64,000 nt of DNA. Origin: Prorocentrum cordatum (Eukaryota > Sar > Dinophyceae > Prorocentrales > Prorocentraceae). The notes under the pieces are model-generated. The model made no database searches. It was not told the DNA's origin and saw only the letters and a list, made by a program, of their open reading frames with translations. This document shows, one piece after another, positions 6,151-24,894 of this stretch (positions are counted from its first letter, which is position 1; each line of letters begins with the position of its first letter). The stretch lies in assembly GCA_963575745.1 (NCBI GenBank), contig CAUYUJ010016354.1, positions 186,001 to 250,000 of the forward strand, in the 5' to 3' direction. A program made the translations under genes and the position numbers.

Positions 6151-6155
6151 CCCCC

Positions 6156-6187
6156 AACGACAACAACAACAACAACAACAACAACAA
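6156..6187. repeat. (ACA)n microsatellite
   Basis: About ten ACA units. Confidence 0.9.
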
Positions 6188-6409
6188 TCATTTTACCCGA
6201 ACGCGTGGTGTTCTCCCCAGTGCCAGGGTTTTCATACGACACCAGACAATACCCCCACTTCGTGGGGGGGCATTACAAGCTCTACCAAATATCCAAACGA
6301 CTCTTCGCGACCACCCAAACCCAGCTTCCCGCCCTATGACGTTGGGACACTTCACTTCGTGGCGTGCGGACGACCGTGGCTACTACACTGGCGTGGGGTA
6401 CACACCCAC

Positions 6410-6960
6410 AGAACTTGGTCACTTATTCGGGGCGCGCATGTGCCCAGCATGGTGCAATTGTGCCATACAATACATAATACAGAGAGACAGAGAGAGAGAC
6501 AGAGAGCAGACAGAGAGAGAGACAGAGAGAGCGGAGTTGGTCACATTTTTGGGTCAAGTTCCTGGGATGATGGGAATACACAACTCTGTTACATTTGATA
6601 GTGTGCACGACACACATGAGATGATACGTACTCGCAAGATAGTTGGTCACATTTGTGGAATTCCTGGGCGGATGTGGGGATACACAAATACCTTTGTTAC
6701 CAGTGCTAGACATGGTACAGACACTGAGAGAGAGAAGGCGAGACAGAGGAAGAGAGCGGGAGAGAGAGAGACAAAGAGAGAGAGACAGAGAGAGAGGAGT
6801 TCGTCACATTTTTTCATCAAATTCCTGTGCCGAAGTGGGAATACGCAAAGGCATCAGTTGCATATGACCCGTAGGGTACATGGTACACATGATCATGGTA
6901 CGTACGCACAAGATGGTTGATCACATCTTTAGGGCAAATTCCTGAGGGATGTGGGAATAC
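6410..6960 (+). repeat. Divergent TTGGTCAC repeats with GA-rich inserts
   Basis: Five spaced copies of a TTGGTCACAT-type core (near 6,417, 6,536, 6,642, 6,801 and 6,916), several followed by TTCCTGGG and GGGAATACACAA, with GAGA-rich stretches between them. They are relatives of the ~95-bp repeat arrays found further right and mark the left part of the GTAT/ATAC-rich block. Confidence 0.7.
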
Positions 6961-6977
6961 ACAAGAGAGAGAGAGAC

Positions 6978-7190
6978 GATATGGTTTTCCCGATGGTTGT
7001 CTCGATGGTTGTCCCGATGGTTGTCCTGATGATCGTGGTTGTCCCGATCGTCGTCCCCATGGTTGTCCCGATAGTTGTCCTGATGGTTATGGTTGTCCCG
7101 ATCGTTGTCCACATGATTGTCCCGCTGGTTGTCCCGATGGTTGTTCGGATGGTTGTCCCGATGGTTGTCCCGATGGTTGTCGCGATGCTG
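6978..7190 (+). repeat. GATGGTTGTCCC minisatellite
   Basis: About 17 imperfect 12-bp units (GATGGTTGTCCC and variants such as GATCGTTGTCCC). The open frames across it are repeat artefacts. Confidence 0.9.
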
Positions 7191-7261
7191 CCATACTTTC
7201 TTTTTCTATCGCCCAGCCTCGGCGAACAGTGCCGGCGGGGGAACAGGGAGCATACTGCCAG

Positions 7262-7346
7262 AGCGCACTCATACTGTCATGAGCGGCCAAGGGCATGCGG
7301 CATACGGAACGGCACTCATACTGTCATGAGCGGCCAACGGCATACA
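7262..7346 (+). repeat. Two-copy ~52-bp tandem duplication
   Basis: GCACTCATACTGTCATGAGC followed by GGCCAAGGGCAT and CGGCATAC occurs twice back to back, immediately downstream (minus-strand sense) of the ORF ending at 7,349. Confidence 0.7.
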
Positions 7347-7348
7347 GC

Positions 7349-8311
7349 CTACAGACGCGAAGGCTCCTCCTCCTGGGTCCCGTCCGCGATGGCGCCAATC
7401 CGCGGCGATACCTGAGGCTGGACAGGTGGCAGCACGGAGGCCATACGCGTCGCAATGGCGACATCAGGGATGTGTCCGAGCACGATGCTCATACGCCTGC
7501 TCGCGGATGCCGGGCCCGTGGCTGCGAGAGGAAATGCCGCCAAGACGCCCGGGACCTGCACCGTGATACCGAGGTCCAGTCGGTAGTCCATTAGATTCCC
7601 ATGCGGCGACTGGCCCCACGGTCGGTATACGTCCTGGTGCCACCATTGGTCCTGTGTCGGGTATACCCCGGGCTCGCCCGCGGCAACCCACAGTGCCATA
7701 CCCTGCGGCTCATACCCCATGGATGGCGCGTGAATGGCGATGAATACGTCCAAGCTCATCAAGGCCCTATACGAAAGCCCCGATACGACCTCGGCGCGAA
7801 CGCGAATACGAAGTCGATCCAAGATCCTGCGAAGGCCGGCATACATCCACTCGCCGTGCCGGACGAATACGTCGCGTGTCCAGTCACGTATGCCGGCGGT
7901 GGCGCTGAGCTGCTCGAGCACATACGCGAGCGTGCCCAGTGCCCGCCCTTCTGGATCTCGAAAGCCGTGGAGGTTCCCGAATACGAGGTTCGCGTAGAAG
8001 AAGACGTCGAACGCGAGCCACTCAGGCGTCTCGATACCGCCCCTACGCTTCATGTTCTCGTCGGCCTCCGAGTTGGCCTTCGATACTCGCGTGGACGCAG
8101 CCGTTGATACGCAGAGGCATACACCCATGACTCCATTCCACACCGCGGGGAAGTAGATACCCGTAGCGAACCATCTGCTCTCGGCAAGCATCTTCAGCCA
8201 TACGAATACAGCATTCTCGCCGCCGCGTGGGACGTTCCAGTCCCACATACGCTGGGCGACCTGCTGTTGCGATGGAGTATACTCTCCGGCGGCGTCCCAG
8301 TCCCCGTCCAT
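7349..8311 (-). CDS. Unrecognised 320-aa protein of the GTAT-rich block
   Basis: The frame is open from 8,518. The ATG at 8,311 (MDGDWDAAGEYTPSQQQ) is preferred because a DinoSL relict lies 80 nt upstream and the intervening sequence is a low-complexity leader made of GCGTAT-type words. The protein is Trp- and Tyr-rich, with an aromatic stretch (WLAFDVFFYANLVFGNLHGF), an Arg-rich helix (LRRILDRLRIRVRAE) and an acidic C-terminus. I recognise no family. It is the leftmost of five same-strand genes sharing dense GTAT words in all codon phases. The regular composition and lack of stops over 320 codons support coding; function is unknown. Confidence 0.6.
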   Translation of the reverse strand: MDGDWDAAGEYTPSQQQVAQRMWDWNVPRGGENAVFVWLKMLAESRWFATGIYFPAVWNGVMGVCLCVSTAASTRVSKANSEADENMKRRGGIETPEWLAFDVFFYANLVFGNLHGFRDPEGRALGTLAYVLEQLSATAGIRDWTRDVFVRHGEWMYAGLRRILDRLRIRVRAEVVSGLSYRALMSLDVFIAIHAPSMGYEPQGMALWVAAGEPGVYPTQDQWWHQDVYRPWGQSPHGNLMDYRLDLGITVQVPGVLAAFPLAATGPASASRRMSIVLGHIPDVAIATRMASVLPPVQPQVSPRIGAIADGTQEEEPSRL

Positions 8312-8312
8312 G

Positions 8313-8391
8313 ACAAAGGAGATACGTAAGATGGAAGATACGTGAATACGAAGATACGCAAATACGTAAATGCGAAGATACGCAAATGCAC
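8313..8391 (-). promoter_or_regulatory. GTAT-rich 5' leader
   Basis: Between the DinoSL relict and the ATG the minus strand is built from GCGTATTT, GCGTATCTTC and ACGTATCTTC words, with about seven GTAT copies in 79 nt. If the relict marks the mRNA 5' end, this is a 5' UTR. Any regulatory role is conjecture. Confidence 0.4.
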
Positions 8392-8412
8392 CTTGAGCAC
8401 AAATGGCTGCGG
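8392..8412 (-). other. DinoSL relict upstream of the 7,349-8,311 gene
   Basis: Reading the minus strand from 8,412, the sequence begins CCGCAGCCAT and ends GCTCAAG. It matches 18 of the 21 fixed positions of the dinoflagellate spliced leader. It lies 80 nt upstream of the chosen ATG on the same strand. This is one of the two best matches in the window. Confidence 0.8.
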
Positions 8413-8545
8413 CATACATGCGAATGTTGATGTGGCAAAGTGGCCAAGCCCATACGAACAGAAACGAACCACATACATGTGCCAAAGTGCCATTCGTGCG
8501 ACGTCCGCCGCCGCACATGCGACCAAGGCAGGCATACCGACATCA

Positions 8546-8562
8546 TGTTTTTTTTTTTTTTT
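8546..8562. repeat. Poly-T run
   Basis: About 16 consecutive T on the plus strand, followed by GCCCCGGGCCTCATGG. Confidence 0.9.
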
Positions 8563-8609
8563 GCCCCGGGCCTCATGGATTCCCCCCCTAGATCCCCATG
8601 TAACGGCGG

Positions 8610-8860
8610 CCCGGGCCGAAGTGCCCAGGGAAGACGGCTCGGGCCGAAGGCATTAAGAGAATACGTAAAACCATTGAGCCCTGGGAGGCCCCCCCCAAGA
8701 TCCCCAGACAGGTCTTGCGGCTCGGGCCGAAGGCCTAAAGAGAATACATAACAACAGGGCCCTGGGAGGCCCCCCCAAGATCCCCAGATAGGTCTGGCGG
8801 CTCGGGCCAAAGGCCTACAGAGAATACATAAAAACCATTGGGCCCTGGGAAGCCCCCCCC
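8610..8860 (+). repeat. ~88-bp tandem repeat, three copies
   Basis: Each unit carries GGCTCGGGCCGAAGGC, AGAGAATACATAA and GGGCCCTGGGAGGCCCCCCC followed by AAGATCCCCAGA. Three head-to-tail copies have small differences. Confidence 0.85.
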
Positions 8861-8864
8861 CCCA

Positions 8865-9015
8865 GGAAAATGGTGGCCCCAAGAAAGCCCATGGTGACCC
8901 CAAGACAGCCTTTGATGGCCCCAAGACAGCCGATGGTGACCCCAAGAAAGCCTATGACGGCCCCAAGACAGCCCATGGTGGCCCCAAGACAGCCTGTGGT
9001 GGCCCCAAGACAGCA
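8865..9015 (+). repeat. GGCCCCAAGACAGCC minisatellite
   Basis: About eight ~20-bp units of ATGGTGGCCCCAAGACAGCC type. The same GGCCCCAAGA core recurs at 15,505-15,620, 23,790-23,950, 26,895-27,205, 28,580-28,650, 41,146-41,215 and 50,040-50,870. Confidence 0.85.
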
Positions 9016-9016
9016 G

Positions 9017-9221
9017 CCAGTTGGTCACATTATTGGGGCAACTTTTGGCGCTGAGGCAGGCTGAGGCCGAGGCTGAGGCTGAGGCTGAAGCTGAAGAGGA
9101 AGCTGAAGCACTCTGAGGCCGAGGCTGAGGCTGATGCAGGCTGAGGCTGGGGTAGGCTGACGCCGACGCTGAGGCAGGCTGTTGCCGAGGCAGGCCGAGG
9201 CTGAGGCTGAGGCTGGGATCC

Positions 9222-9252
<31 letters not shown>

Positions 9253-9283
9253 CCGTCGCCGTCACCCTCGCCGTCGCCGTCTG

Positions 9284-9339
<56 letters not shown>

Positions 9340-9345
9340 GCAGCC
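9017..9345 (+). repeat. TTGGTCAC unit fragment, GAGGCT and GTCGCC repeats
   Basis: One fragment of the ~95-bp TTGGTCACAT unit (9,017-9,050) is followed by GAGGCT/GAGGCC hexamers (9,055-9,215) and (GTCGCC)n hexamers (9,225-9,345). The open frames through the hexamers (poly-Arg, Asp-Gly, Ala-Thr) are artefacts. Confidence 0.85.
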
Positions 9346-10398
9346 CACGATGCCACCTGGGAGCGGCAGCCCACTGTGCCACCAGGGACGCGAGAGCATA
9401 GACCCCCGAACCAGGTGTTCACGTTTTTGTGTTTTTTTTTTGCCACTCCCAACTTCATATATATACGCCCGAGGTGCAGAAAAGAGATACTCTGGTCTAA
9501 ATGCATGCAGCACCTGCCTCCCCAGCGCGCACGCACGACTCTGGAAGATTCGCCTCATACACCGTGCCCTCAGGAAGCCCCCGAAGTCGTTGACGCCGGA
9601 GACCTCGCTCACCCCCTCCACGTCCATACCGTTGTGGCCGACCGAGTGGCGGAGCTTCACAGCGGCCTGGAAGTCTTGAAGTGATACCTCGTGCTGCGAT
9701 GGACCAGCTCCGTGAAAGCTGTTGCCGTGATACCTGAAACAGGTGGTAGCCCGATGGTGGCATTGAGCCACAAAGGCCAACCCCCCGCAACTTTGCCAAT
9801 TGGCCATCATACGGACTCGCGACAGTTTAGTCTTGTCGAGCCAGTCATAGACCTGCTTCGCATACTTGTCCAACTCCGGCCCCGTCTTCGCGGTCGCCAG
9901 CACTGCGTCGTCCGCACCGCTCGCACGGAGGAGAGCAGCACCCTTCTTCTCAGGCTGCTTCTTGGGTGCCAGGCAATACTGCAAGGCCGGCAGGATCTCA
10001 TCAATCTCTTTGTACAAATCGTTATACATCTGCTCCTTCAATACCGCCTTATTCCCCGCCATTACCGAGGGATCCTTTTGATACTCGCAGAAAATCTTCA
10101 TCGCGTGAATGAAACGGTTAATACCGACACCCCTCCGCTCCGGCTCCTTGCTGCACATCTCCGACATCCATACGGCCCCGCTCTTCAGCGGCCCCTGCAT
10201 CTGGGTCCATACCTGCGCGTCCTTCAACTTCGCGAACTTCGAAGGCCCATGCGCGTTGAGCAACTGCGCGGGCAACGTCTCGTATACCTTCAGCCACTCC
10301 CGCTTCTTCTGGTCCTTCGGCATCTCCACGGAGGCCGGGGCGCCCGTCGGCGCCGCAGCCCCGGCCAGGGCGAAGTCTGGGCAGTGGTCGAGTGTCAT
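9262..10398 (-). CDS. Unrecognised protein of the GTAT-rich block
   Basis: The ORF begins at an ATG at 10,398 (MTLDHCPDFALAG); upstream in-frame codons to 10,548 look like leader. It encodes a charged, mostly helical protein (KKREWLKVYETLPAQLLNAH, RFIHAMKIFCEYQKD, KEIDEILPALQYCL, KKQPEKKGAALLRASGADD), then a Cys/His-containing part (CHHRATTCFRYHGNSFHG). The frame continues through Arg codons made by the GTCGCC hexamers to a stop at 9,262, so the real C-terminus or an intron probably lies near 9,480-9,560, where GTAT density drops. No family is recognised. A weak DinoSL-like sequence lies 54 nt upstream of the ATG. Confidence 0.5.
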
Positions 10399-10452
10399 AC
10401 GGAACCGCGGGGAATACACTTCCGAGTGGGAAGCCTGGTGCAGCCGTGCCGA

Positions 10453-10474
10453 CTTTGGGAATATATGGCTGCAG
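10453..10474 (-). other. Weak DinoSL-like sequence
   Basis: The minus strand from 10,474 begins CTGCAGCCAT, matching 8 of the first 10 leader positions, and ends AAAG, with a diverged middle. It lies 54 nt upstream of the 10,398 ATG. Its main support is that position, like the clear relicts elsewhere in the block. Confidence 0.25.
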
Positions 10475-10599
10475 TTTGAAACCGGATACCTACTACTGGC
10501 ACACATGGCACTACTGGCACACATGCAGTTTTTGGATACGTATTGCACATGATACGTACGACGGACAGCATGTTACATATGATACGTATGGCAAATCAT

Positions 10600-11110
10600 C
10601 CGTATGATACACATGCGACAGAGACCACAGTTGGTCAAATTTTTGGGGCAAATATTGTCACACTCGCAGTTGTTACGTATACTACCTATTGCACATGATA
10701 CGTGTGATAGACATGAGACAGAGGCAACAGTTGGTCACATTTGTGGGGCAAATTTTGCAACACATGCGGTTGTTACGTAAAATACATATTGCACATGTAA
10801 TACTAGGCCTGAGACAGAGAGAACGGCTGGTCACATTTTTGGGGCAAGTTTTGCCACACACGCAGTGGTTACGTATAATACATATTGCACATGATACGTG
10901 TGAGAGACCTGAGACAGACACAACAGTTGGTCACATTTTTGTGGCAAAGTTGACGTACGAGTATATCTACATATGTATACATATATGTATAGAGGTGTAT
11001 GTGACTGTGTATGTGCACGTGTGCGTGTAGAGGCATGGCTATGCGCGTCGGACTAGTATGTTTACATGTGTGTGTGTATGTGTATGTGTATGTCATTACT
11101 GGTGTATGCT
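10600..11110 (+). repeat. ~97-bp repeat array (four units) and TG/TA-rich flank
   Basis: Four TTGGTCACATTTTTGGGGCA units (10,630, 10,731, 10,828, 10,925), each followed by TTTTGCCACACACGCAGT and a TACGTATAATACATATTGCA segment. The array passes at 10,960 into TATA/TGTG-rich sequence to about 11,110. It is an intergenic spacer between two minus-strand genes. Confidence 0.85.
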
Positions 11111-11178
11111 CTTGTTTCATACAGTTCTGGTGGACCCCTGCGTCAGACAACATGCAACTATACAAATGAACGCCGCCC

Positions 11179-12516
11179 TCAAGGTTCAGACAGCAACGCT
11201 TCCAACTTGACTTTGGATACACGTCTGGTGACCCACCTACCCCGAATTTTCATTCTTTGACACTCGCTGGCGCCGTCAGCGTGCACTGCGGACACCAGCT
11301 CCTCGTAACTCCTCTTCCGCGCCCCCGTGCCTGAAGGCTTCTGCATACCTCGCTTCACAAGCGCAGCGAGCTTCTTCACAGTATGCGACTTCCCGTACTT
11401 GATACCCAGACCCTTTGCGGCCTTGACCAAACCGCGATACTGCTGTGTATGCTGCCTCGCATACGTCTGGACCTTCTGAGTCACAACGCTCAGAGCACTC
11501 GCCAGCACGCGGAACTCTGGAATACCGTCCAATTCCACCTTGGGACACAGACGGCGGCGACCCAACTGATACGCCACCTCCAAAGGTCCGCCAGCGCGCT
11601 TGCAGGGTAACTTCCGCAGCACAGCGAGTGATACACCCACACAGCTGCGGATCCCCTCCAAAACCTGAATTGTGTGACAAAGCGTCGATACACTATATGC
11701 TAGCCCATTTCGGATACGCGAAACGTTTTCCCGCACAGACTTGCTCTTGTCATACACCTCCATGAGGTACCAAAGACCACGCAGCGAATACGTGTTGATA
11801 GCCTGCCGCGTCTCGCAGAACAATACATACATGGTCGCGACACTCACTTGAGACGTGGTGTTCAGAGCCCTCCTCATACGCCCCAATGCCGTGGCCATAC
11901 TGTCGCAGGAAAGCACACCAAAATACGCGAGCTCCGCCGCAGCATGGCGTCTCCACTTCCCACGCTGCCGCTTCAGAAACCACTGATGCAGCTCCTCGGT
12001 ATACTCCGCTGGCGTGCAGTCCATGGAAAACTCAAGAATGGTAACAAAACACCGCATACAGTCCATGCTGTTATACTTACCTGCCATCTTCACCTGGTTC
12101 TTCTGAACGGCCACGGCCACATAGTCCGGGATACTGCCCCCCATGGCCATGATGTCAGCGCTCGTGACCGAGACGCCCTTGACACGGGGACGCAGAAGCC
12201 CCGATACTACGTGCGACCACTTCTCCGCAAATGCAACAAGGCGCCGTCGTATACGAGCCCTGCGCAGAGTGCGAATAAAATTCAGACCAGAATACGCGAT
12301 GTGCAAACCTTCCCGATGGGCTAAATACGTGCCACCTCTCTCTTTGCATACAGCCTCGCAGTGCCGGACAAGACCGCAACAGAATGAATCGAAGTCCTGG
12401 ACGAATACAATCCACTGGTCCAAAAGGTAGTCACATACGACAGGTACTCCTGCCTGGCCTCTGGTGAAACGCAGTAATACAAAGGACAGCACGAACAGAT
12501 ACCCTGCGGACTGCAT
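11179..12516 (-). CDS. Unrecognised ~445-aa protein of the GTAT-rich block
   Basis: The frame opens at a TTG at 12,537; the first ATG is at 12,516 (MQSAGYLFVLSFVLLRFTRG), 33 nt after a DinoSL relict. The N-terminus is hydrophobic and could be a signal or anchor segment. The rest is Arg/Lys-rich and helical (FIRTLRRARIRRRLVAFAEK, WFLKRQRGKWRRHAAAELAY), with scattered cysteines (SMDCMRCFVTILEFSMDC). The tail is strongly basic (KYGKSHTVKKLAALVKRGMQ, then IRGRWVTRRVSKVKL), suggesting nucleic-acid contact. I recognise no domain. GTAT occurs about once per 45 bp (seven in 11,341-11,640). The long open frame, shared composition and relict leader support a real gene. Confidence 0.6.
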   Translation of the reverse strand: MQSAGYLFVLSFVLLRFTRGQAGVPVVCDYLLDQWIVFVQDFDSFCCGLVRHCEAVCKERGGTYLAHREGLHIAYSGLNFIRTLRRARIRRRLVAFAEKWSHVVSGLLRPRVKGVSVTSADIMAMGGSIPDYVAVAVQKNQVKMAGKYNSMDCMRCFVTILEFSMDCTPAEYTEELHQWFLKRQRGKWRRHAAAELAYFGVLSCDSMATALGRMRRALNTTSQVSVATMYVLFCETRQAINTYSLRGLWYLMEVYDKSKSVRENVSRIRNGLAYSVSTLCHTIQVLEGIRSCVGVSLAVLRKLPCKRAGGPLEVAYQLGRRRLCPKVELDGIPEFRVLASALSVVTQKVQTYARQHTQQYRGLVKAAKGLGIKYGKSHTVKKLAALVKRGMQKPSGTGARKRSYEELVSAVHADGASECQRMKIRGRWVTRRVSKVKLEALLSEP

Positions 12517-12549
12517 GCCAAGGCAATACGTGGCCAAGAATACCCCCCT

Positions 12550-12570
12550 CTTGAGCCAAAGTGCCTATGA
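12550..12570 (-). other. DinoSL relict upstream of the 11,179-12,516 gene
   Basis: On the minus strand the sequence TAGGCACTTTGGCTCAAG (12,567 down to 12,550) matches 16 of the last 18 positions of the dinoflagellate spliced leader. It ends 33 nt before the first ATG of the downstream ORF on the same strand. Confidence 0.75.
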
Positions 12571-12589
12571 GCAACGCACGCACGCACAG

Positions 12590-12665
12590 ACATGACGATG
12601 ATGATGCTGCTCGTAATGATGATGATGGTGATGATGATGATGATGATGCTGATGTGGATGATGGT
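12590..12665. repeat. GATGAT microsatellite
   Basis: GATGATGATGCTGCTC followed by imperfect (ATG)n, directly upstream (minus-strand sense) of the DinoSL relict. Confidence 0.85.
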
Positions 12666-12667
12666 AG

Positions 12668-14245
12668 TTGCAGTTGTTTCATATTTACGCATTGCACAAG
12701 ATACGTATGACAGCCATGACACAGAGACAAAAGTTGGTCACAGTGTTGGGGCAGATTTTGCCACACACGCAGTTCCTGCATATGACACATGATACGTATG
12801 AGAGACAGAAGACAAAGAAAAGTTGGTCACATTTTGGGGCACATTTGGTCACACATGCAGTTGTCACATAATTACATATTGCACATGATACGTATGACAG
12901 CCATGAGACAGAGACAAAAGTTGGTCACATTTTTGGGGCAAATTTTGCCACACATGCAGTACTTACGTATGATACATATTGCACATGATACGTATGACAG
13001 AAAGAAGCCAGAGGAAAGTTGGTCACATTTTGTGGGGCAACTTTGGTCAAACATGCAGTTGTTTCATATTTACGTATTGCACAAGATACTTATGACAGCC
13101 ATGACACAGAGACAAAAGTTGGTCACATTTTTGGGGCAGATTTTGCCACACACGCAGTTCTTACATATGGCACATGATACGTATGAGAGACAGAAGACAG
13201 AGTTGGTCACATTTTTGGGCTATTGGTCACACATGCAGTTGTCACATAATTACATAGTGCACATGATACGTATGACAGCCATGAGACAGAGACAAAAGTT
13301 GGTCACATTGTTGGGGCAAATTTTGCCACACGTGCAGTTCTTACATATGATACACATTGCACATGAGTATGAGAGACAGAAGACAGGGAAAAGTTGGTCA
13401 CATTTTTGGGGCAAATTTTGTCCCACATGTTGTTTCCTATTTAAGTATTGCACAACATACGTATGACAGCCATGACAAAGAGGCAAAAGTTGGTCACATT
13501 TTTGGGGCAGATTTTGCCACACTTGTAGTTCTTACGTATGATACATATTGCACATGACACATATGAGAGACAGAAGCCAGAGGAAAGTTGGTCACATTTT
13601 TGGGGCAAATGTGGTCACACATGCAGTTGTTACATATCACACACATGGCACATGATACTTATGACAGCCATGACACAGAGACAAGAGTTGGTCACATTTT
13701 TGGGGCAGATTTTGCCACACAAGCAGTTCTTTCATATGGCACATGATACGTATGAGAGACAGAGGACAGAGAAAAGTTGGTCGCATTTTTCGGGCAAATT
13801 TGGTCACACATGCAGTTGTCACAAAATTACATATCGCGCATGATACGTATGACAGCCATGAGACAGAGACAAAAGTTGGTCACATTTTTGGGGCAAATTT
13901 TGCCACACATGCAGTTCTTACGTATGATACATATTGCACATGATACGTATGAGAGAAAGAAGACAGAGAAGAGTTGGTCACATTTTTGGGGCAAATTTGA
14001 TCACACATGCAGTTCTTACATATGATACATATTGCACATGATACGTATGAGAGACAGAAGACAGGGAAAAGTTGGTCACATTTTTGGGGCAAATTTTGTC
14101 CCACATGCAGTTGTTTCGTATTTACGTATTGCACAAGATACGTATGACAGCCATGACACAGAGGCAAAAGTTGGTCACATTTTTGGGGCAGATTGTGCCA
14201 CACTTGTAGCTCTTACGTATGACAGCCATGACACAGAGGCAAAAG
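12668..14245 (+). repeat. ~95-bp tandem array, about 16 units
   Basis: TTGGTCAC cores occur about every 93-105 bp from 12,734 to 14,168. A full unit carries GATACGTATGACAGCCATGA, ACAGAGACAAAAG, TTGGTCACATTTTTGGGGCA, AATTTTGCCACACATGCAGT and a TACGTATGATACATATTGCA segment. Internal GGCAAATTTTGCC is an inverted repeat with 6-bp arms, and ATACGTAT is an 8-bp palindrome. Units alternate between 'GAGAGACAGAAGACAG' and 'GACAGCCATGAGACAG' forms, suggesting a higher-order two-unit repeat. Confidence 0.95.
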
Positions 14246-14253
14246 TCCGGCAC

Positions 14254-14277
14254 CATACGTCATAGATCATTCCGGCG
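14254..14277 (-). other. Array-border motif shared with the helicase gene end
   Basis: A 24-bp sequence (minus strand: CGCCGGAATGATCTATGACG then TATG) differs at two positions from 16,876-16,899, where it contains the TGA stop of the Rep/helicase gene. Both copies sit just outside the right border of a ~95-bp repeat array. Confidence 0.55.
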
Positions 14278-14465
14278 ATGATGATGATGGTGATGATGAT
14301 GATGGAGGTGAGGGAGGGTGTTGGTGATGGTGGTGATGGTGATGGCGAGGATGAGGGGAGGAGGAGGAGGAGGAGGAGGAGGAGGACGATGAGAGGAGGA
14401 GGAGAATTAAGAGAAGGCTGAGGAGGAGGACGAGGAAGAGGAGGAGGAGGATAAGAACGATGAGA
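14278..14465. repeat. GATGAT and GGAGGA microsatellites
   Basis: Imperfect GAT/GGT repeats (14,278-14,345) then GGA repeats (14,354-14,460). Confidence 0.9.
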
Positions 14466-14598
14466 AGAGCCAGGGACCCCGTGAATACCTCTCGGAGTCG
14501 AGTCGAAGCCTCGGGGGCGCTCTTGGGAGCCTTGGGGCGCTCTTGGGACCATCTCAGGGACATGCGATTTTTTTCTTTGAGTGCACAAGGAAACCAGT

Positions 14599-15327: not shown

Positions 15328-15387
15328 GGCTCGCGAATACGCGGAACCTCGGATACTGTAGCAAAACCTGAAGGCAATAGGAAGTAT

Positions 15388-15410
15388 CTCTGAGGGCCTA
15401 CTGGCTACGG
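15388..15410 (-). other. Probable DinoSL relict upstream of the 14,599-15,327 gene
   Basis: The minus strand from 15,410 begins with nine exact leader bases (CCGTAGCCA). A diverged middle follows, in which GGC, TCA and AG align after small gaps. It lies 61 nt upstream of the chosen ATG. The 9-mer alone could be chance; position supports it. Confidence 0.4.
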
Positions 15411-15489
15411 ATACAGAAGATGCTGACGACAGCGTGAAGTCATGGGCCGTCGGCAAGCCCTCGGCGAGGCGCAGCCGCGCAGAACAGCT

Positions 15490-15625
15490 CAGCCCGAACA
15501 GGCCCCAAGACAGCCTATGTGGCCCCAGCACAGATGGTCCCAAGACAGCCTATGAAGCAGAACGTGATGGCCCCGGGAAAATTGTGGCCCCAAGAAAGCC
15601 TATGGTGGCCCCAAGATACGTAGAG
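15490..15625 (+). repeat. GGCCCCAAGA minisatellite
   Basis: About six irregular ~20-bp units (GGCCCCAAGACAGCCTATG and variants), the same family as 8,865-9,015. Confidence 0.8.
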
Positions 15626-15639
15626 TATGTATGCTCAGG

Positions 15640-16800
15640 ATACGTATGATAGGTATGATACTCATGCAGTTGTTACATATAACACTTTGTGCGCATGATA
15701 AGTATGATAGGCATGTGACAGGAGACAACAGTTGGTCACATTTTTGGGGCATATTTTGACCCACAGGCAGTGGTTACGTATAATACATATTGCACGTGAG
15801 ACAGATGAACGCGGAGACAAAGAGTTGGTCACATTTTTGGGGCAGATTTTTCTCTGTTACATAATACACATTGCACAAGAAAAAGACAGCCATGAGAGAG
15901 AGACGAAAGTTGGTCACATTTTTGGAACAAATTTTGCCACACATGCAATTGTTCCGTATGACACATACTGCACATGATACGTATGAGATACATGAGACAA
16001 AGAAAGTTGGTCACATTTTTGGGGCAAGTTTCGTCCCACGTGCAGTTGTTACATGAGTACACATTGCACAAGGTATGGCAGCCATGACACAGAGACAAAA
16101 GTTGGTCATTTTTTGGAGCAAATGTTGCCACACCTGCCTTTCGTACGTATGATACATAGTGTTCATGAGACGTATGAGAGACAGGACACAGAGAAAAGTT
16201 GGTCACATTTTTGGGGCAAATTTTGTCACACATGCGGTTGTTACATAAATACGTATTGCACAAGATACGTATGACAGCCATGAGACAGAAGCAAAAGTTG
16301 GTCACATTTTGGAGGCATTTGCCACACATGCAGTTGTTACGTATGATACATATTGCGCATGATATGTATGAGAGACAGAAGACAGAGAAACGTTGGTCAC
16401 ATTTTTGGGGCAAATTTTGCCCCACGTGCAGTTGTTACATAAGTACACATTGCACAAGAAAAAGACAGCCATGAGACAGAGACAAAAGTTGGTCACATTT
16501 GTGGGGCAAATTTTGCCACACATGCCACGTATGATACATATTGCACATGATACGTAAGAGAACAGAAGACAAAGAAAATTTGGTCACATTTTTGGGGCAA
16601 ATTTTGTCCCACATGCAGTTGTTATATAATTACACATTGCACAAGATACGTACAAGAGACATGGGACAGAGACAAAAGTTGGTCACATTTTTGGGGCACA
16701 TTTTGACCCACATGCACAGCTTACGTATAATACATATTGCACGTGATACGTATGAAAGGCATGCGCCAAAGACAACAGTTGGTCACATGCGGGCCCGGAT
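15640..16800 (+). repeat. ~95-bp tandem array, about 12 units
   Basis: TTGGTCACAT cores near 15,731, 15,823, 15,910, 16,007, 16,100, 16,197, 16,298, 16,392, 16,487, 16,580, 16,677 and 16,775. Same unit as the 12,668-14,245 array. It fills the spacer between the SGNH-like gene and the Rep/helicase gene. Confidence 0.95.
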
Positions 16801-16875
16801 ACATACATTAGATATGGTACTAGGCCGACATGGCCACATGCGCGTGTGTACGTTTGTTTTGTTTGTCCCCGTCGC

Positions 16876-16899
16876 CATGCGTCATACATCATTCCGGCG
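16876..16899 (-). other. Array-border motif containing the helicase stop codon
   Basis: Minus strand CGCCGGAATGATGTATGACG then CATG; the TGA at 16,889-16,891 ends the Rep/helicase ORF. It is nearly identical to 14,254-14,277. Confidence 0.55.
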
Positions 16900-19636
16900 T
16901 GGCCGTGCCGCCGTAGACGAGCAGCTCACCATTTTCGCCCCACTCTGCCTCCCTCACTGGGAGCTCACTGCATACGCCCATCTCCTCATACACTGGCGCA
17001 TCGGCAGCCTCCGCAGCGGCACCTGCAGCAAAGTCTGCAAGGATACGTTGGCAGCCGGTCTTGGATACATCTGCCGTATCCTCTGCGCTCACAAGGAAGT
17101 CCACGAGATTGTTGCCCATGTCCATGGACACAACAGGGTCCGCGTCATACTCCCCTTGATCTGCACAGGCATACTCGAGGCCTTTCCCCTCGTCGTCAGA
17201 TGACGATACCGAGTCGTAGCCGCGCTCCAGCACCTCGCCAGCCTGCTCAGGCCCAGCCGGGAGGAAGTCACTGCGGCGGACCTTGCCGAATACATAACAG
17301 CCCTCGCGAGACTTAAAGCGGCTGCAGGCAACGTAGCCATACCCTCTCGTAGCCACTCTCTTCTTCTGCTCGAAGTAAATACAGCCGCGAAAGAGATCCG
17401 CACCCTGGGCTCGACGCACCGTGGTCGCATACCCGTAGCAGCAGGGCAGGAAGACCTCCCCATTCTCCTCGATGGGGTGCACCAATACCATGTTTCCCGT
17501 GCCCACCAGCCTGGCTGTAAACACGGAGTTTCCACGAAGCGACTCGCATACCGTGGCCAACGCCCCATTCACAAAGCCTCGCTGCTTGTCGAAGTTCCGA
17601 CTGAGGCGAATGACGATACCAGGTCTGGCCAAAATACGTAAGTCGGACTTCGTGGTCGGGTCGCAATACCCACCCTTTTGCAGATCGGCCTCACTAATGC
17701 CGAGTAATGCCAGAGCCGCTCTGCATACCTCCGACGAGCCTGCGTTCGTACACGTGAGCCAAGAAAACGGATGGCCTTTCTCCGACGCCAACGCCATACC
17801 GCGCTCAACACAAGCCTCCAAGGACTCATGATGCCAGTGGCGGTCGCCAAAATACTCCGTCAAACACGCTCGATCTGGCTGAGCCTCGCGTATACGATTC
17901 AGGAAAACCAAGTGCTGCTTGTCTGCGGTGCGATACACGGTCTTCAAATCAACCTTGTCCATTTGGTCGCAGAAGTGCTCGCACTGGCCCCCGCTCAATA
18001 CTGGCTGCAACTGCTTAAAATCGGCGACGATACCAGTGAAGGGTTTGTGCGGCTGCTCCCGCACCGAGGCAAAAAAACGCATCCATTCCTGGTCTTCATA
18101 CTGGCTGCCTTCATCGCAAAGAATCAAATCAATACTTCTCAAAGCCGAGGGTGGAGCCCAGCGGACCTTGCCGTCCTTCCCGGCCCTCTTATACTTCAAG
18201 ACTCCTTGTATCGTGTCCACTCGGATATTCTCAATACCAGGTCTGTCCGGCAGCTTGGACTTGTACTGGTGCACGAGATACCCCGTGGGGCACACGATCA
18301 AGACCTGAAGAGACTCACATGCCCAAATGGCCAGCTCCAACAATACTGCCGTCTTCCCACTGCCGGGCGGTCCAGAGATATACAAGAAACGCTTACTGTT
18401 CTGCTTCTCCTCCTCGTCCTCCAGCGATACACCCTTCTTGACCCGTTCGATGGCGTCAGCCTGCTCTGGGCTCCACGTGCGCTGCTGATACTTCGGCCTG
18501 TTCAAGGTATCCCACTCCTGCCGAAGGCACTCGTACTCTGGCTCGTTATCGCATTGAGCAAAACGCATATACAACAGAAAATTCGCGCGTTGCTTCTGCT
18601 CGAAGCAGCCGACACGCCCATCGCGCATACCGCGAAATTGCAGATCGCGTCGGGCCAGCGAGAGCAGATACTCGAATGCTGCCCTGTCATTGGCAAATAC
18701 AGGGCCTCCGGCAGTATACTCAGAGCCGAATGTAAGTATCTGGCCGTCATCACCCACTCGCATCGGAAGCGCATGAGTATGGAACTTCAGATCACACGAC
18801 GTCTCCACGATATCAACAGAGCCCGACCACTTCCAGGACATGAGATACTCGATCATGCCCACGAAATTCTTCATACTGTCCAGGTGTTTGAACGTCCGAG
18901 GGAGTAATTGTGCAGCGTATACATGTGGCAGCACAGTCAGTGAATGCTGGCCCCAATACCCGTCCGTCAGCTCGTACCAGTACCTGCAGGCGACCACTTG
19001 CGTAGGTTCATACCTTTGATTACGTCGGCCGCCGCGGAAATGAACGCAGTGGTTGAAGGAGTCATACTCCCTGCCACGGTGCCATACCAAGAAACTCTCC
19101 GATACGTGAATCCCTGCGACCAGCTGCTCCCTCTTCTCCTGCAGATAAAAGCCATACATCCTCGAGGAAAAGTTGCCTTGCCGCCCGTCATAGTTCACCA
19201 TGGCTGCCGGCTGCGGTGGATACAGCAATACATGAGAGTAGGACCGCTCAAATTCCGACAGTTGCGCCAAACGGATCGCCACTTCCGGCAAGCACGGGCT
19301 GCTCTTGCTGAGCAAGCGATACGCGGTCAGCCAGGAGCTGTTTGCATTCTTCTGCACATACTCGCCGAGCCCGACGTCGACGGCATCATGGTCCTTCGCC
19401 ACATACCCAGAAATGTAGTTCAGACGGCCGTTGCCTATCTGAACATCTATCTCGGCGCAGAATACCAGCGAGAGGAACTTGACGAATGCCGACACCACAG
19501 CCGTCCCAGTGCGCCCCTGGAGATACTGCAACAGCCCAAAGCATACAACCCACGCGCAGATGTGCCAGTGCGGGGTGCCACGGCCTTGGTACTCGGTCTT
19601 CATACACCACTCGTAAACGATGAAGTACCTGGACAC
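16889..19636 (-). CDS. Helitron-like Rep/PIF1 helicase, exon 3 (HUH motif, Rep tyrosines and helicase)
   Basis: 915 codons. It opens with the end of the Rep nuclease domain: EYQGRGTPHWHI carries the HUH histidines H23 and H25, and NYISGYVAK carries two tyrosines (Y74, Y78) in the Helitron YxxxYxxK arrangement. A ~330-residue linker follows, then a PIF1/RecD-type SF1B helicase: Walker A GPPGSGKT (422-429), Walker B LILCDEGSQ (504-512), GIVADFKQLQPV (535-546), GFVNGALATV (687-696), YGYATTVRRAQGADL (734-748) and YVACSRFKSREGCYV (768-782). The order Rep then PIF1 helicase is diagnostic of Helitron rolling-circle transposases. All catalytic residues checked are present. The first codon here is GTG; the preceding Rep sequence lies in exon 2 beyond a ~185-bp interruption. 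Confidence 0.85.
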   Translation of the reverse strand: MSRYFIVYEWCMKTEYQGRGTPHWHICAWVVCFGLLQYLQGRTGTAVVSAFVKFLSLVFCAEIDVQIGNGRLNYISGYVAKDHDAVDVGLGEYVQKNANSSWLTAYRLLSKSSPCLPEVAIRLAQLSEFERSYSHVLLYPPQPAAMVNYDGRQGNFSSRMYGFYLQEKREQLVAGIHVSESFLVWHRGREYDSFNHCVHFRGGRRNQRYEPTQVVACRYWYELTDGYWGQHSLTVLPHVYAAQLLPRTFKHLDSMKNFVGMIEYLMSWKWSGSVDIVETSCDLKFHTHALPMRVGDDGQILTFGSEYTAGGPVFANDRAAFEYLLSLARRDLQFRGMRDGRVGCFEQKQRANFLLYMRFAQCDNEPEYECLRQEWDTLNRPKYQQRTWSPEQADAIERVKKGVSLEDEEEKQNSKRFLYISGPPGSGKTAVLLELAIWACESLQVLIVCPTGYLVHQYKSKLPDRPGIENIRVDTIQGVLKYKRAGKDGKVRWAPPSALRSIDLILCDEGSQYEDQEWMRFFASVREQPHKPFTGIVADFKQLQPVLSGGQCEHFCDQMDKVDLKTVYRTADKQHLVFLNRIREAQPDRACLTEYFGDRHWHHESLEACVERGMALASEKGHPFSWLTCTNAGSSEVCRAALALLGISEADLQKGGYCDPTTKSDLRILARPGIVIRLSRNFDKQRGFVNGALATVCESLRGNSVFTARLVGTGNMVLVHPIEENGEVFLPCCYGYATTVRRAQGADLFRGCIYFEQKKRVATRGYGYVACSRFKSREGCYVFGKVRRSDFLPAGPEQAGEVLERGYDSVSSSDDEGKGLEYACADQGEYDADPVVSMDMGNNLVDFLVSAEDTADVSKTGCQRILADFAAGAAAEAADAPVYEEMGVCSELPVREAEWGENGELLVYGGTATPE

Positions 19637-19820
19637 TGTTATTTATTTTGGCACACTGTTGTGACATGATACATATGGTACATGATGCGCATGATACACA
19701 TGAGACAAACTCGCAGAAGAGTTGGTCACATTTTTGGGGCAAATTTTCGAACACATCCGGTTGTTATATGATATACATGGGGTACATGATACATATGACA
19801 CACATGAAAACTCGCAAAAC
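19637..19820 (-). other. Interruption in the Rep domain carrying one ~95-bp repeat unit (probable intron)
   Basis: The Rep domain is continuous in protein sequence from NRWGHRFVFLYNEI (before) to SRYFIVYEWCMKTEYQGRG (after). The intervening ~184 bp contains one TTGGTCACATTTTTGGGGCA unit flanked by ACATGATACATATG-type words. Joining at a shared GT gives in-frame PGIVSRYF. A canonical GT donor with AG acceptor in frame was not found, and the ends share a 2-bp direct repeat. This fits either a non-canonical dinoflagellate intron or a disabling insertion. Confidence 0.55.
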
Positions 19821-20559
19821 AATTCCTGGAATTTCGTTATACAAGAAGACGAACCTGTGGCCCCAGCGGTTCGCCAAGAACATCCAGATACAGCGAACCA
19901 GGAAGTACATATGGAGTGACATCATATAGGCACCAGCAAAAATACAGCGCAGGTACGGCTCCATGAAATACGGCCTCGGGAACTTCCACTCCGCGGGGGC
20001 GATGGTGATGAACAGATTCGGAAACGCGCACAGCCATACCTGTCCCCGGAGATTCCGGCAGCGTTGATACAGGGCCTCATAATTCTTCTCGTCGTAACAG
20101 CGCACGAGCATGATACGCACCAGATCAGCGAGGGAGTCTTGCACGATCTCCCAATACCCCGCAGACGCCTGCGAATCTCGAGCCATAACATCCCCCGTGA
20201 CGCCGAGGCTCTTGGCACGGACTTGTGCATTGAAATACTTGTTCGCCAAATGCTTCTCGTACAGGAAGAACGGCAGGTCCCGCTGCTCGCCATATACGCG
20301 GGCACTGGACAACACCTTCCGAGTCCAAGACAGGCCGATGGATACCACACGGTTCGTGCTATCCTGGGTCTCGGCATAGTAGTGCTCCATTATACCCGTA
20401 TCAGTGAAGTCCGTGGTCGGGTACAAGACGGGGTACATGGCACACTCGATACCTTTCATGACCACAAAGAGGTCGTAGGAGGACAGATTCAAGGAGCTGC
20501 GGTTCTCGATACGGATCCTCAGGAGAGTCAGAAAGCTACTGTCATACTTGGTATGCGCC
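19821..20559 (-). CDS. Helitron-like Rep/helicase, exon 2 (Helitron-like N-terminal Rep region)
   Basis: About 245 codons in a frame continuous with exon 3 after removal of the interruption. It contains FLTLLRIRIENRSS, MYPVLYPTTDFTDTG (cf. the YP-LFP region of Helitron N-domains), a long helical part, then ASAGYWEIVQDSLADLVRIM and the LFITIAPAEWKFPRPYF segment. The last corresponds to the 'YWxxxxxDL ... FxTxSxAEWxWP' signature preceding the HUH motif in Helitron Rep domains. The 5' border is set at an AG (rc of 20,560-20,566, GGAATAG) and is tentative. The downstream extension to 19,764 runs into the repeat. Confidence 0.7.
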
Positions 20560-20693
20560 CTATTCCAATGAATAGTTGTTGATTGTATTGTTTTTGTTAT
20601 TTTGTTTGCCAGCCTTTTTTTTTGTTTTTGTGTTTTATGGTTTGTTTGTTTTTTGTTAGTCAATCTCGTGGTCGTCGACGTCGCCGTCGCTCT

Positions 20694-20788
<95 letters not shown>

Positions 20789-20800
20789 GAGGAGGAGGAT
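20560..20800 (-). other. Probable intron with (CGA)n and A-rich tract
   Basis: On the minus strand, (GACGAC)n of about 120 bp is followed by an A/C-rich tract (AAACAAACCATAAAACACAA) ending at TTGGAATAG. Translation of the tract is homopolymeric, and family resemblance resumes only after it. No canonical GT donor sits at the exon 1 end near 20,801; dinoflagellate introns often use GC or GA donors, so the exact junction is open. Confidence 0.5.
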
Positions 20801-23719
20801 CCTCTGTTCCGTCAGAAAGACGCGGTAATACTTGCTGTGCTCCCTCAAAAAATGAAATGCAGCCTTGCACCGGACGGTAGGCATACTCGCTTCGCAGACC
20901 AGGTCCTTCTTGAAGTACGCGCGCGAGAGGCCCACCTTCTTCCAGTTGAACTGGTGCGCAGCGCCATACCTCTCTTGCTGTACTGAGGTCCTCAAGACGA
21001 CGATGCTCAGAGCACGACATTCGTCCACGGTCATCTCGTGCATACAGGGTCCAGTGCTGTGGTCCAGCGAAAACTCCCCAAACGAGTATCGAGGCCAGGT
21101 GATACACTCCTTTGCCTCGTAGCCCGACTTCGTCGCCAAGGGGATCCTATACAGCTCCGACGTCTTTGCAACCTTGAGGGCCTTCCCGTGGTTCTGCATA
21201 CGGCGGTTGAACTTCTCGAGAGGAGTCTCTGTACCAGAACAGCAAGGGCATCTGGCAACCACAGGCGTGTACATGCCTGGCTTATACCACCATCTCGAAG
21301 ATATACCAACTTGGCCACAGGCGTGCACCACCGGGTCCTGCGGTACTTGCCGACGATACGCCGCCAGCATGTCTGGTTGTTCCGACGTGCTACGATCCTG
21401 ATATACACGGTTCGAGAAATACTCGTCATTGAAGAAGAACGAACCGCAGGCCTCGCAAGCGGACCAACTCCCGTAGCACACCCAGAACGCAAAGTCTGTC
21501 AGATTATACTGCTTCGTGTAGGTGGCTTGGATACTGGTGAGTAATGACATGGACCAAGACTGTCGCTGAAATACCTCCTGGCACTTTAACATGGCATACG
21601 CAGCAATAAGACAAGCGTCCGCCGCCATTTTCGGGAATACTATGCAACGGTCAGCTGTCGCCACGCTGCGAGCTCTCGCATACCAGCCGTGCTCTTGGTC
21701 GGAGATACACGCGTGTGCAGTCCTCGGCAGCACCTGGCCCTGGAAGGTCTTCTCGTAGGCCTCCACCACGGGACCTGGCAGCACATCCTTGTATACAAAG
21801 GCATCTGGATACTCGAGTGCCAACTTGGCATGCCGTTCGTGGGCACCGAAAAATACCGATAGATTGTGCAAAGGCACCAACTCTTCCGCCACCCCCAAGC
21901 GCTGACATAAGGATACACGCACAGCCTCCAAACCAGATCTAGCCCGGGCGCGCAGGGAGCGCGAAGCAACCTCCCAGTTGTGGCCGAGCTTGCTATCCAG
22001 AGAAACCAAGGAATACAAGAACTCCCACTCCTGTTGCTCTAGGTGGTCGCTGGTCCAGCATTCGCCACGTTGCTCGCGATAGCGACGATGCGCTACGAGC
22101 CGCTGCGTGGTCCTGCAATCCACGAGACACTGCGCCAGTAACTGCTTTTTCACCTCCTCGGCCGAGACGCCCTTCTGCAGCTGCTCCAGGACATACTCCC
22201 CGCATACGTGGCTGTGTATCTCCTCAGCATTCTCCAGTATTGCCAGCTGCTGGGAGGGCGCCTTCAGCCACCTCTCCAGGGCGACCCAATGTGCAAATAC
22301 CCCGGTCTCCGCGCGATACTTGTCCACCAGCGCTCGCCCCCTCAAGCCTTCTACGTGATGCCAATACTGGAGGTCCCTGCGCGACAACGCGTAGACGGCG
22401 CAATTGCCATGTTTGGCACCGTCTCCGAGTCGATACTTGCCGAGCCACTCTCGCAAGGCATATGGACCCGCCTCATACCCCCAGGCCTTCAGACGCACCT
22501 GCATATTCTGGTAAGTGAGGCCAAGGCCCAAGTCGGAGACCTGCTCTCGATACCGCTTGCCGCATGCCGCCTCTACAGCATCCCCCGTCAGCAGCTTTAT
22601 ACAAACCACATCTGTGGAGGAAGAAGCTGCCGTGGCCTGCTGCTTCGATACGGGCTCCTCCCAGTCGACCGCGGCAGGCCGTTTGGCCACGCGGGCAGAT
22701 CCGGCGGCGGCTGGCCGTTTCAATACCCCGCCTGCGACCCGCGCCGCCGGGCGCTTCAATACACGCCTGGCGACGGCCTGGGCGGATGAAGCCGTCGCCT
22801 GCACTGAAGAGCTCACCGACGCATGCGCATCGCACCACTGTCTCAACACTCCTCGGGACACCAAGACAGCTTTCCGTCGCATACGCAACACGGCATGCAA
22901 GATGTGGTACTTCAGCCCTGGATATACCGCGCGCATGTGGTCACCAAGTGCCGCGTCGAGCTTTTCAGCCGTGTCATACTGCAAAGGTCCGGAGTCAGGG
23001 TGATACTTCACGTACCATTGCCTCAAAACCATACCGCTGACAGCGACGGGAGGGTCGCTCTCCGAGAGAATCTGCGAGAGGACCTCCGCGGCGGCCTCGT
23101 CGGCGAAGCTCTCCCGATACTGATTGAGTCGAAGACGCTGGCCTATACATTCCTCCACAGCTTGGGCAGTATTCAATGCTCCCTTGGCGCCCCACTCCGT
23201 GCTGAGCCACTTCTGACATACCCTGGCGTCAGCAGATACAGATAAATGTCCCAGGAGCCACTGCTTCAAGACGGCCCCGTCAGTAGTCCCCTCGGGCATG
23301 TCTGTGCGAATACGTTCTCCATACCAGGTCTCCAGATGGCCAGCGTTCTGCACTTTGACAAGCGTCTCTTTGGAAGAATACTGCAGTAACCACGTCGTTG
23401 CGACCTTATTTGACACATACAGTGGTGGATCCAACTGTCGGAGCGCCCCGCATAATTTAAAAGCTGTATTATACTCGATGCCCAGGTGGCGGATGGCAGA
23501 GCCGTGATGCTCCTCCAGCTCCGTGGCGCTAGAAATACTGACCGTGCCAGGCACAACCCGATACTTGCACCACCAAAGCTTGCACGCCTGGTGACTGACC
23601 TGGATACCCTTTGCAACGAGCGCCTGATGCAAATAATACGGGCTGCCGCAGTCAGCCAAGGGAGGCCGCGACAGCTCTGGGCCATACTGGTCGTCAAGGG
23701 CTTTCGCCGACAAAGCCAT
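20801..23719 (-). CDS. Helitron-like Rep/helicase, exon 1 (repeat domain, KRPAA motifs, Cys cluster)
   Basis: About 973 codons from the ATG at 23,719, which lies 26 nt after a DinoSL relict. The N-terminal half contains six degenerate ~46-54-residue repeats (8-53, 68-114, 129-175, 187-240, 253-298, 381-430). Their shape is L-(4-5)-G-x-x-x-R, a spacer, L-(3)-L, then V-S/A-x-x-V-L-x-x-W-L-x-K-Y (e.g. VSGMVLRQWYVKYH, AGPYALREWLGKYR). They look helix-turn-helix-like and may bind DNA. Between repeats 5 and 6 are three KRPAA motifs (322-350), possible nuclear-localisation or chromatin contacts. The C-terminal part has CEAC (755-758), a CG at 801-802 and CPCC (824-827), suggesting zinc binding. The ORF continues as poly-Arg into the CGA tract, which I exclude. 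Confidence 0.7.
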
Positions 23720-23745
23720 GACCCATCCAAGAACACAGGCGATAC

Positions 23746-23766
23746 CTTGATCCGAGATGGCTACGG
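23746..23766 (-). other. DinoSL relict at the 5' end of the Rep/helicase gene
   Basis: Reading the minus strand from 23,766: starts CCGTAGCCAT, ends GGATCAAG; 18 of 21 positions match the dinoflagellate spliced leader. It is followed by GTATCG and, 26 nt on, by the ATG of the 973-codon exon. The last dense ATAC word of the block lies right beside it (23,741), so it also marks the right border of the GTAT-rich block. Confidence 0.85.
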
Positions 23767-23784
23767 ATGTGACAGTGATCAGTC

Positions 23785-24850: not shown

Positions 24851-24855
24851 TAATA

Positions 24856-24894
24856 ATGTTCAACAACAACAACAACAACAAACAACAACAACAA

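Follow-up and report, generated by a model that had tools for sequence, protein, structure and literature searches.

A window of 64,000 nucleotides from the dinoflagellate Prorocentrum cordatum (contig CAUYUJ010016354.1 of assembly GCA_963575745.1, positions 186,001 to 250,000; GC content 58%) contains a repeated, Helitron-like element of about 18.7 kb, along which the tetranucleotide GTAT recurs in the sense of the genes, appearing as ATAC on the plus strand. In at least five genes, as well as in their leaders and in the tail of the zone, selection keeps the word on the coding strand at a regulated spacing. An original prediction, made from the letters of the window, had pointed to this block (6,200–23,770) and had offered a binding or modification site, or the mutational signature of one replication route, as its cause. 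The clade trait described here is new in three respects that go beyond it: the Helitron-like identity of the element, the absence of the trait from three other Rep–helicase families and the regulated spacing.

The element and its genes

By its sequence, the GTAT block is the gene-bearing portion of a multicopy Helitron-like transposon (Table 1). The likeness to Helitrons lies in an HUH motif, a helicase domain, the PF14214 domain of the homologues P0003 and P0006, and the copy number. In the genome searched (4.13 Gb in 21,875 contigs), all 40 scored matches to positions 23,500–24,100, out of 2,058 first-look candidates, were 97–100% identical. Loci of this genome are numbered below with an L and homologous proteins with a P. 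At the right boundary, six of seven other copies stop matching at 24,869–24,920 and the seventh continues to 25,115, inside the (CAA)n repeat; at the left boundary, the one other copy read there (L025) is alike from 6,155 on. Near this end a GC-rich hairpin, CCCCCA-CTTCG-TGGGGG (6,252–6,270), was seen by eye, followed by CTGG on the sense strand. It resembles a Helitron 3′ end; the copy read there is still alike for about 90 bp past it, to 6,155.

Table 1. Features of the element, in positions of the window
Feature	Position	Strand	Basis or remark
Whole repeated element (Helitron-like), ~18.7 kb	6155..24870	- (gene sense)	(CAA)n at both ends; copy comparison
Sense-strand GTAT zone (ATAC on +)	6234..23745	-	Strand counts
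Element DNA upstream of spliced-leader relict	23767..24870	.	0 sense and 1 antisense GTAT in 1,104 nt
DinoSL-like relict, 3 mismatches	23746..23766	-	26 nt before E1 ATG (out-of-frame ATG at 19)
E1, first exon of Rep–helicase gene	20802..23719	-	Open reading frame (ORF) and gene model
Intron 1, 284 nt, GA-AG, (GAC)n-rich, one GTAT	20518..20801	-	Joined frame
E2, second exon of Rep–helicase gene	19855..20517	-	ORF and gene model
226-bp insertion in Rep–helicase gene, AG/GT bounds, 5 sense GTAT	19629..19854	-	Copy alignment
E3, Rep (HUH: PHWH) and helicase exon	16892..19628	-	AAA_30 match, homologues
98-bp tandem array	15855..16788	.	GTAT on both strands
Possible DinoSL-like relict, 7 mismatches, weak	15390..15410	-	62 nt before an E4 ATG
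E4, accessory gene	14602..15327	-	ORF
98-bp tandem array	12669..14222	.	GTAT on both strands
DinoSL-like relict, 4 mismatches	12550..12570	-	33 nt before in-frame E5 ATG
E5, accessory gene	11182..12516	-	ORF
98-bp tandem array	10571..10948	.	Surrounding stretch with GTAT on both strands
E6, open frame resembling an accessory exon (within ORF 9265–10572)	9530..10440	-	ORF
DinoSL-like relict, 3 mismatches	8392..8412	-	80 nt before E7 ATG
E7, accessory gene	7352..8311	-	ORF

The block holds at least five genes, and the frames described all read on the minus strand. The earlier description as five unrelated open reading frames needs correcting in one respect, for three of the long frames proved to be exons of a single Rep–helicase gene. 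Excision of its first intron joins HFLREHSKYYRVFLTEQ to RIRIENRSSLNLSS in frame, a model supported by the joined frame having the same length as homologue P0003 across the stretch. The third exon contains the HUH motif EYQGRGTPHWHICAW, the residues H20 and H22 of which are invariant when the window is aligned with 18 of the at least 77 homologues found at E ≤ 0.001. Y71 and Y75 are invariant in the same alignment and are candidates for a catalytic pair. The helicase domain was recognised as PF13604 (AAA_30, E 1.5e-12, above the cut-off), and PIF1 structures were matched at E 4e-4; the close homologues P0003 and P0006, 63–65% identical, combine PF13604 with PF14214 (Helitron_like_N). Two or three weak repeats of about 60 residues (near residues 39, 97–100 and 222) were noticed in the N-terminal part of E1 (20,831–23,719), a candidate region for nucleic-acid binding. 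The 226-bp insertion is missing in five aligned copies (L017, L026, L028, L029, L032) and in L019–L023, and its core is similar to the 98-bp array repeat; it is a candidate for a recent intron gain and looks newly made from the element's own repeat.

Three DinoSL-like motifs with at most four mismatches precede genes of the block, and none was found in 300 simulated strands. The motif before E5 recurs, twice, before E5 of another copy, L024. The weaker motif before E4, with seven mismatches, is of a kind expected by chance 1.3 times per 17.6-kb strand; in L024 the motif that precedes E4 has five mismatches. The accessory genes of L024 (C14522:213900-223899) follow the order E6, E4, E5 with a second partial E5, as compared with E4, E5, E6, E7 in the window, and the difference may reflect cassette exchange between subfamilies. 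As to the nature of these genes, motifs in E4 had suggested an SGNH-type hydrolase; its AlphaFold model was of low confidence (pLDDT 52.5) and matched no structure of the PDB at E ≤ 0.001, so that the assignment is a tentative one.

A word kept at regulated intervals

Between 6,200 and 23,770, ATAC occurs 318 times on the plus strand and GTAT 83 times. The corresponding counts in the flanks are 5 and 5 (1–6,199) and 66 and 45 (23,771–64,000). The array-bearing stretches, three in number, have 55 sense and 54 antisense GTAT. Masking the arrays with their surroundings takes out 51 sense and 54 antisense words and leaves 267 against 29, the sense count being about 14 times the flank level (19 expected). 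The signal as first described is upheld, and it proves stronger than was claimed. The local counts on which that description rested were right or close, namely 13 ATAC and 1 GTAT in 17,041–17,640, 6 and 2 in 22,201–22,500, 7 and 2 in 11,341–11,640, and 1 and 1 in 1–1,600. The edges of the zone are sharp. The first ATAC stands at 6,234 and the last at 23,742–23,745, abutting the DinoSL-like motif at which the signal had been said to end; the next follows at 25,373. In the 1,118 nt of the zone tail there are 17 sense and no antisense GTAT.

The preference was compared with shuffles and null models over seven exon-like stretches (10,401 nt), the ends of which were set before the final gene models; E4 and E5 are thus taken with short leaders, the last 29 nt of intron 1 are counted in, and 29 nt at the end of E1 are omitted. 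As had been claimed, the word is independent of frame, starting at codon positions 1, 2 and 3 in 70, 61 and 92 cases. Codon-preserving shuffles gave 106.0 ± 6.8 GTAT, with a maximum of 131 in 1000, against 223 observed, and when all 256 tetranucleotides were scored (200 shuffles) GTAT reached a z of 17.3 and the next word 6.4. The preference is for the whole word, all four of its letters being favoured at synonymous sites. G is chosen in 92 of 108 cases before TAT and in 17 of 48 before TAC, NGT in 61 of 82 before AT against 118 of 605, GTA in 70 of 113 before T against 10 of 169, and TAT in 92 of 109 after G against 17 of 49. Altogether 223 of 360 synonymous opportunities (62%) are filled; of the 252 words that have 100 opportunities or more, none reaches a higher fraction. 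The protein sequence is likewise bent to permit GTAT: the dipeptides that allow it rank first of 256 words (z 10.3), and the element proteins offer 0.104 such places per residue, as compared with 0.05 in L009 and L018, which belong to other Rep–helicase families.

The mean interval between GTAT in the exons is 46 nt, and the intervals are more regular than the preference alone would make them. The null model for spacing was a sampler over synonymous codons, with non-overlapping sites and a GTAT bonus tuned to the observed total, run in 60 simulations; the fitted bonus amounts to a weight of about 23-fold on synonymous codon choice. It is the model relied on here, earlier random-fill nulls having allowed overlapping sites. 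The coefficient of variation of the gaps was 0.545, against 0.780 ± 0.052 under this spacing-blind null. Gaps of at least 90 nt numbered 9 (22.6 in the null) and gaps below 16 nt numbered 13 (37.5), and on each of the three measures all 60 simulations were less regular than the observed sequence.

Filling of an opportunity depends on the distance to the nearest GTAT, rising from 0.22 at 4–9 nt through 0.33 at 10–15 nt and 0.64 at 16–21 nt to 0.93 at 40 nt or more. The null stays at 0.61–0.69 at all distances from 4 nt, so that it yields 69% and 61% where 93% and 22% are observed. This contrast between near and far is 0.63 for GTAT, 0.31 for the next word and 0.03 in the median of the 177 words compared. 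Seen from both sides, the chance of GTAT is 0.15 where fewer than 30 nt would otherwise separate its neighbours and goes up to 0.80 at 80–110 nt. A similar curve was obtained from L017 and L024, the aligned exons of which differ by 4–30% from the window (the E5 copy of L024, which holds a stop, was omitted). The pattern is most aptly described as an upper limit of about 60 nt on the interval, a second GTAT within about 15 nt being little favoured. Neither the codon shuffles nor the spacing null reproduce what is observed, and amino-acid usage fails to explain GTAT, as originally argued. The shuffle, fill and spacing tests support the further claim of a DNA- or RNA-level word maintained across different proteins, and a binding site, one of the causes then offered, may lie behind it.

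Distribution of the trait and selection among copies

Helicase subfamilies A, B and C show the trait, as does a further group of E4 copies (L041–L049). Three other Rep–helicase families were read in the genome. GTAT opportunities are filled to 14% in the L009–L016 family (eight copies 99.9% alike, scored by L009 and L014), to 7% in L018 and to 0–2% in L054/L055 (one family, 87% alike, in which the 728-aa sense frame of L055 was scored). The figure for two HSP70 loci of this genome is 5%. Among the families read in the genome, the trait is therefore private to the clade. No other family word of comparable strength emerged in L009 or L018, where the best tetranucleotide reached a z of only 3.8 and 2.4, and relatives sought in two scans of viral_contigs and one of genome_contigs were not confirmed.

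The homologues P0001–P0077 are known as proteins only, and an imprint of GTAT in them can be read at the protein level. A simple dipeptide index separated the families poorly and was replaced by a ranking of all 256 words. Among the matches listed, 13 of the 29 homologues with at least 800 residues ranked GTAT-permitting dipeptides first (P0001, P0002, P0004, P0005, P0010, P0013, P0016, P0017, P0018, P0060, P0064, P0066 and P0069); others, such as P0020, P0036 and P0077, did not. When only dipeptides unshared with the window were counted, in 76 homologues and the in-genome family L009 (P0001 being too close to the window), GTAT came first in 7 of the 77 and within the first five ranks in 20. 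The excess persists in P0016, P0017, P0018, P0038 and P0046 (z 3.1–3.9), whereas most of the 77 show it weakly or not at all.

Fixed and private changes were compared in the helicase exon of 17 copies from two or three subfamilies, gapped columns being dropped. At third positions, the ratio of fixed to private changes was 8:7 inside GTAT and 83:9 outside (Fisher P 0.0014), and at all positions 10:13 and 113:41 (P 0.0065). Since this ratio differs inside and outside the word, decaying single copies lose GTAT freely, whereas lineages keep it. The commonest private mutation, GT to GC, destroys the word and belongs to the decay of element copies: among 54 private changes in the helicase exon (L026–L040, L017 and the window), the sense strand shows 14 of T to C after G and a further five of A to G before C. 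Private changes number 11 in 236 GTAT columns and 43 in 2499 others. Where GTAT is absent in one subfamily, it is matched 2–6 nt away at three places (649/654, 772/778 in E4, and 2245/2247 in the helicase). The E4 copies, 17–33% apart, carry 15.6–34 GTAT per kb; L041–L049 were read without their surroundings, and L041–L046 show two to three stops over the compared stretch, leader included.

Possible readers of GTAT

Several observations favour the mature transcript as the molecule in which the word is read. The GTAT zone begins directly after the relict at 23,746–23,766, whereas the 1,104 nt that precede this relict within the element are devoid of sense GTAT (Poisson 5e-11 at exon density). 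Three relicts with at most four mismatches stand 26–80 nt ahead of the ATG of a gene, and splicing of intron 1 cuts an exonic GTAT gap from 319 to 35 nt. Translation itself is an unlikely reader, because the word continues on the sense strand of the zone tail. In the explanation that we prefer, GTAT would act in transcripts as GUAU, and a trans-acting factor, whether the element's own product or one taken over from the host, would recognise GUAU in the messenger RNAs (mRNAs) of the element. Each stretch of about 60 nt would then have to hold at least one site. A likely use would be the assembly of element RNAs into a distinct ribonucleoprotein particle, protected, exported or translated apart from host mRNA; copies that lose sites would be poorer parents and leave no lineage. 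For an RNA-level mark of at least one GUAU per 60 nt or so, read by such a putative factor, we see about an even chance, both the reader and its function being inferred.

It is tempting to go further and to regard GUAU as a self-tag on all messengers of the clade, independent of frame and strong enough to steer synonymous codon choice and bend proteins. An RNA-binding factor specific to the element would read it and so distinguish element from host mRNA. We put this fuller version forward tentatively, as somewhat short of an even chance. If it were true, the protein imprint in homologues from other sources would make the tag old and shared across species.

Several points weigh against reading the word in RNA, or against the strength of the selection behind it. 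Synonymous change inside any GTAT (26/233) was not significantly rarer than outside (281/1821, P 0.097), and third-position columns are equally variable in GTAT (14/87) and outside (133/824). The constraint becomes visible solely when private and fixed changes are separated, and the copies are related, so that the counts are of non-independent events. Intron 1 consists mostly of (GAC)n, a repeat in which GTAT cannot occur, so that its poverty in the word is weak evidence. The insertion at 19,629–19,854 contains five sense GTAT, both strands of the arrays have the word, and the 128 nt that precede the E7 relict include four GTAT. The mean unpaired probability of GTAT in predicted RNA is 0.191 and does not exceed the 0.200 obtained when synonymous codons are shuffled with the words kept (z −0.94), which rules out presentation in loops. 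The transcript reading, moreover, is drawn from DNA sequence, and its factor is putative.

Alternatively, the word could be read on DNA. GTAT on the moving Helitron strand may offer, every 50 nt or so, a landing site for a protein, single-strand-binding or helicase-loading, with which the rolling-circle intermediate is coated. This would agree with the Rep–helicase encoded in the block and with the restriction of GTAT to one strand in the exons, and the spacing rule would suit a filament coat. However, the 1,104 nt of element DNA before the relict lack sense GTAT although copies share them, the arrays of the element show no strand bias, and nothing of the kind appears in the three other Rep–helicase families. 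We consider this possible but unlikely. Reading in RNA is the likelier of the two, and both are far likelier than mutation.

A second alternative dispenses with any dedicated positive function. GUAU would merely mask or break up the mRNAs against a host silencing or decay pathway that needs long uninterrupted stretches. In its favour, the rule sets a maximum interval in place of a fixed period, and a second GTAT 4–9 nt away is used at 22%, only somewhat above the 7–14% fill of L018 and L009. Yet two HSP70 loci and three Rep–helicase families manage without GTAT, so that its absence as such goes unpenalised, and evasion of surveillance seems to us rather improbable.

The word might also be a strand-specific target of DNA modification, with 5-hydroxymethyluracil (5-hmU) or N6-methyladenine (6mA) in GTAT/ATAC marking the transcribed element. 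Dinoflagellates carry 5-hmU, and a study of Breviolum reports its enrichment in multimapping, repeat-derived reads (PMC11071213). The same study finds no sequence preference for 5-hmU in that species and mentions TA and TC contexts from older work on another (PMC11071213). Changes of T to C after G are common among private changes generally and not special to GTAT, 5 of the 14 lying in the word. The modification site of the original prediction finds no positive support, the 1.1 kb of upstream DNA that belong to the element being without GTAT, and there is little to recommend it.

Very little, too, can be said for the mutational signature, in which a replication or editing process would make GTAT on one strand. 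Strong strand asymmetry is what such a process would leave, but filling varies with how far away the next GTAT is, the choice of amino-acid pairs is affected too, and private changes are commoner in GTAT columns (11/236 against 43/2499) and erode the word. A single-step mutation bias is ruled out by the preference for all four letters at synonymous sites together with these word-destroying changes; the sites shifted between subfamilies and the loss of GT to GC likewise contradict the signature of one replication route that had been proposed. A by-product of repeats or of codon or amino-acid usage is next to impossible, for although the 98-bp arrays are GTAT-rich on both strands, masking them sharpens the asymmetry, and neither the codon-preserving shuffles nor the spacing null reproduces the signal.

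The nearest known idea is that of the dispersed packaging signals of single-stranded RNA viruses, in which a short core is repeated along the RNA and its spacing matters (PMC6281560). The core and its constrained spacing are found here at the level of DNA. The viral signals are described there as stem-loop motifs with a shared core (PMC6281560), whereas the element uses an exact tetranucleotide some 300 times, without preference for unpaired positions; stem-loop presentation was not seen (0.191 against 0.200). Unlike the viral signals (PMC6281560), GTAT is spread over several genes of a transposon in which no capsid gene was recognised.

In the Helitron literature surveyed, titles and the openings of abstracts mention no strand-specific internal word, and three other Rep–helicase families of the same genome lack one. 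In a wider survey, titles and abstract openings likewise described no such word in a transposon. As this survey yielded no such word, and the packaging signals differ in being stem-loops of viruses, we rate the GTAT punctuation of transposon genes as a categorically new kind of phenomenon, with a mechanism that we infer. Overlapping codes in exons, such as splicing enhancers and germline licensing repeats, are generally degenerate and amount to statistical enrichment across many host genes. Like GTAT they lie over protein-coding sequence and are visible in synonymous choice; unlike them, the element uses one exact word, which fills 62% of possible sites in a single element and follows a maximum-interval rule.

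If the RNA reading is right, the element would carry an unusually strong overlapping code: a single exact tetranucleotide imposed on several unrelated genes at a controlled interval, with enough force to shape proteins. Transposons would have gained a means to mark their own RNA, and the sorting of self from non-self mRNA in dinoflagellates would become testable. Even with another mechanism, the statistics of spacing point to the presence, in this cell, of something that reads sequence over some 60 nt.

The relicts of the block recall the DinoSL-tagged retrogenes of dinoflagellates (PMC6050394), at least three of the genes carrying a relict before the ATG. The relict does not bring GTAT with it: at an HSP70 locus whose relict has two mismatches, the word fills 2 of 41 opportunities. 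In L052 such a relict (1387–1407) stands about 95 nt before an HSP70 match, on a contig with many successive HSP70 matches.

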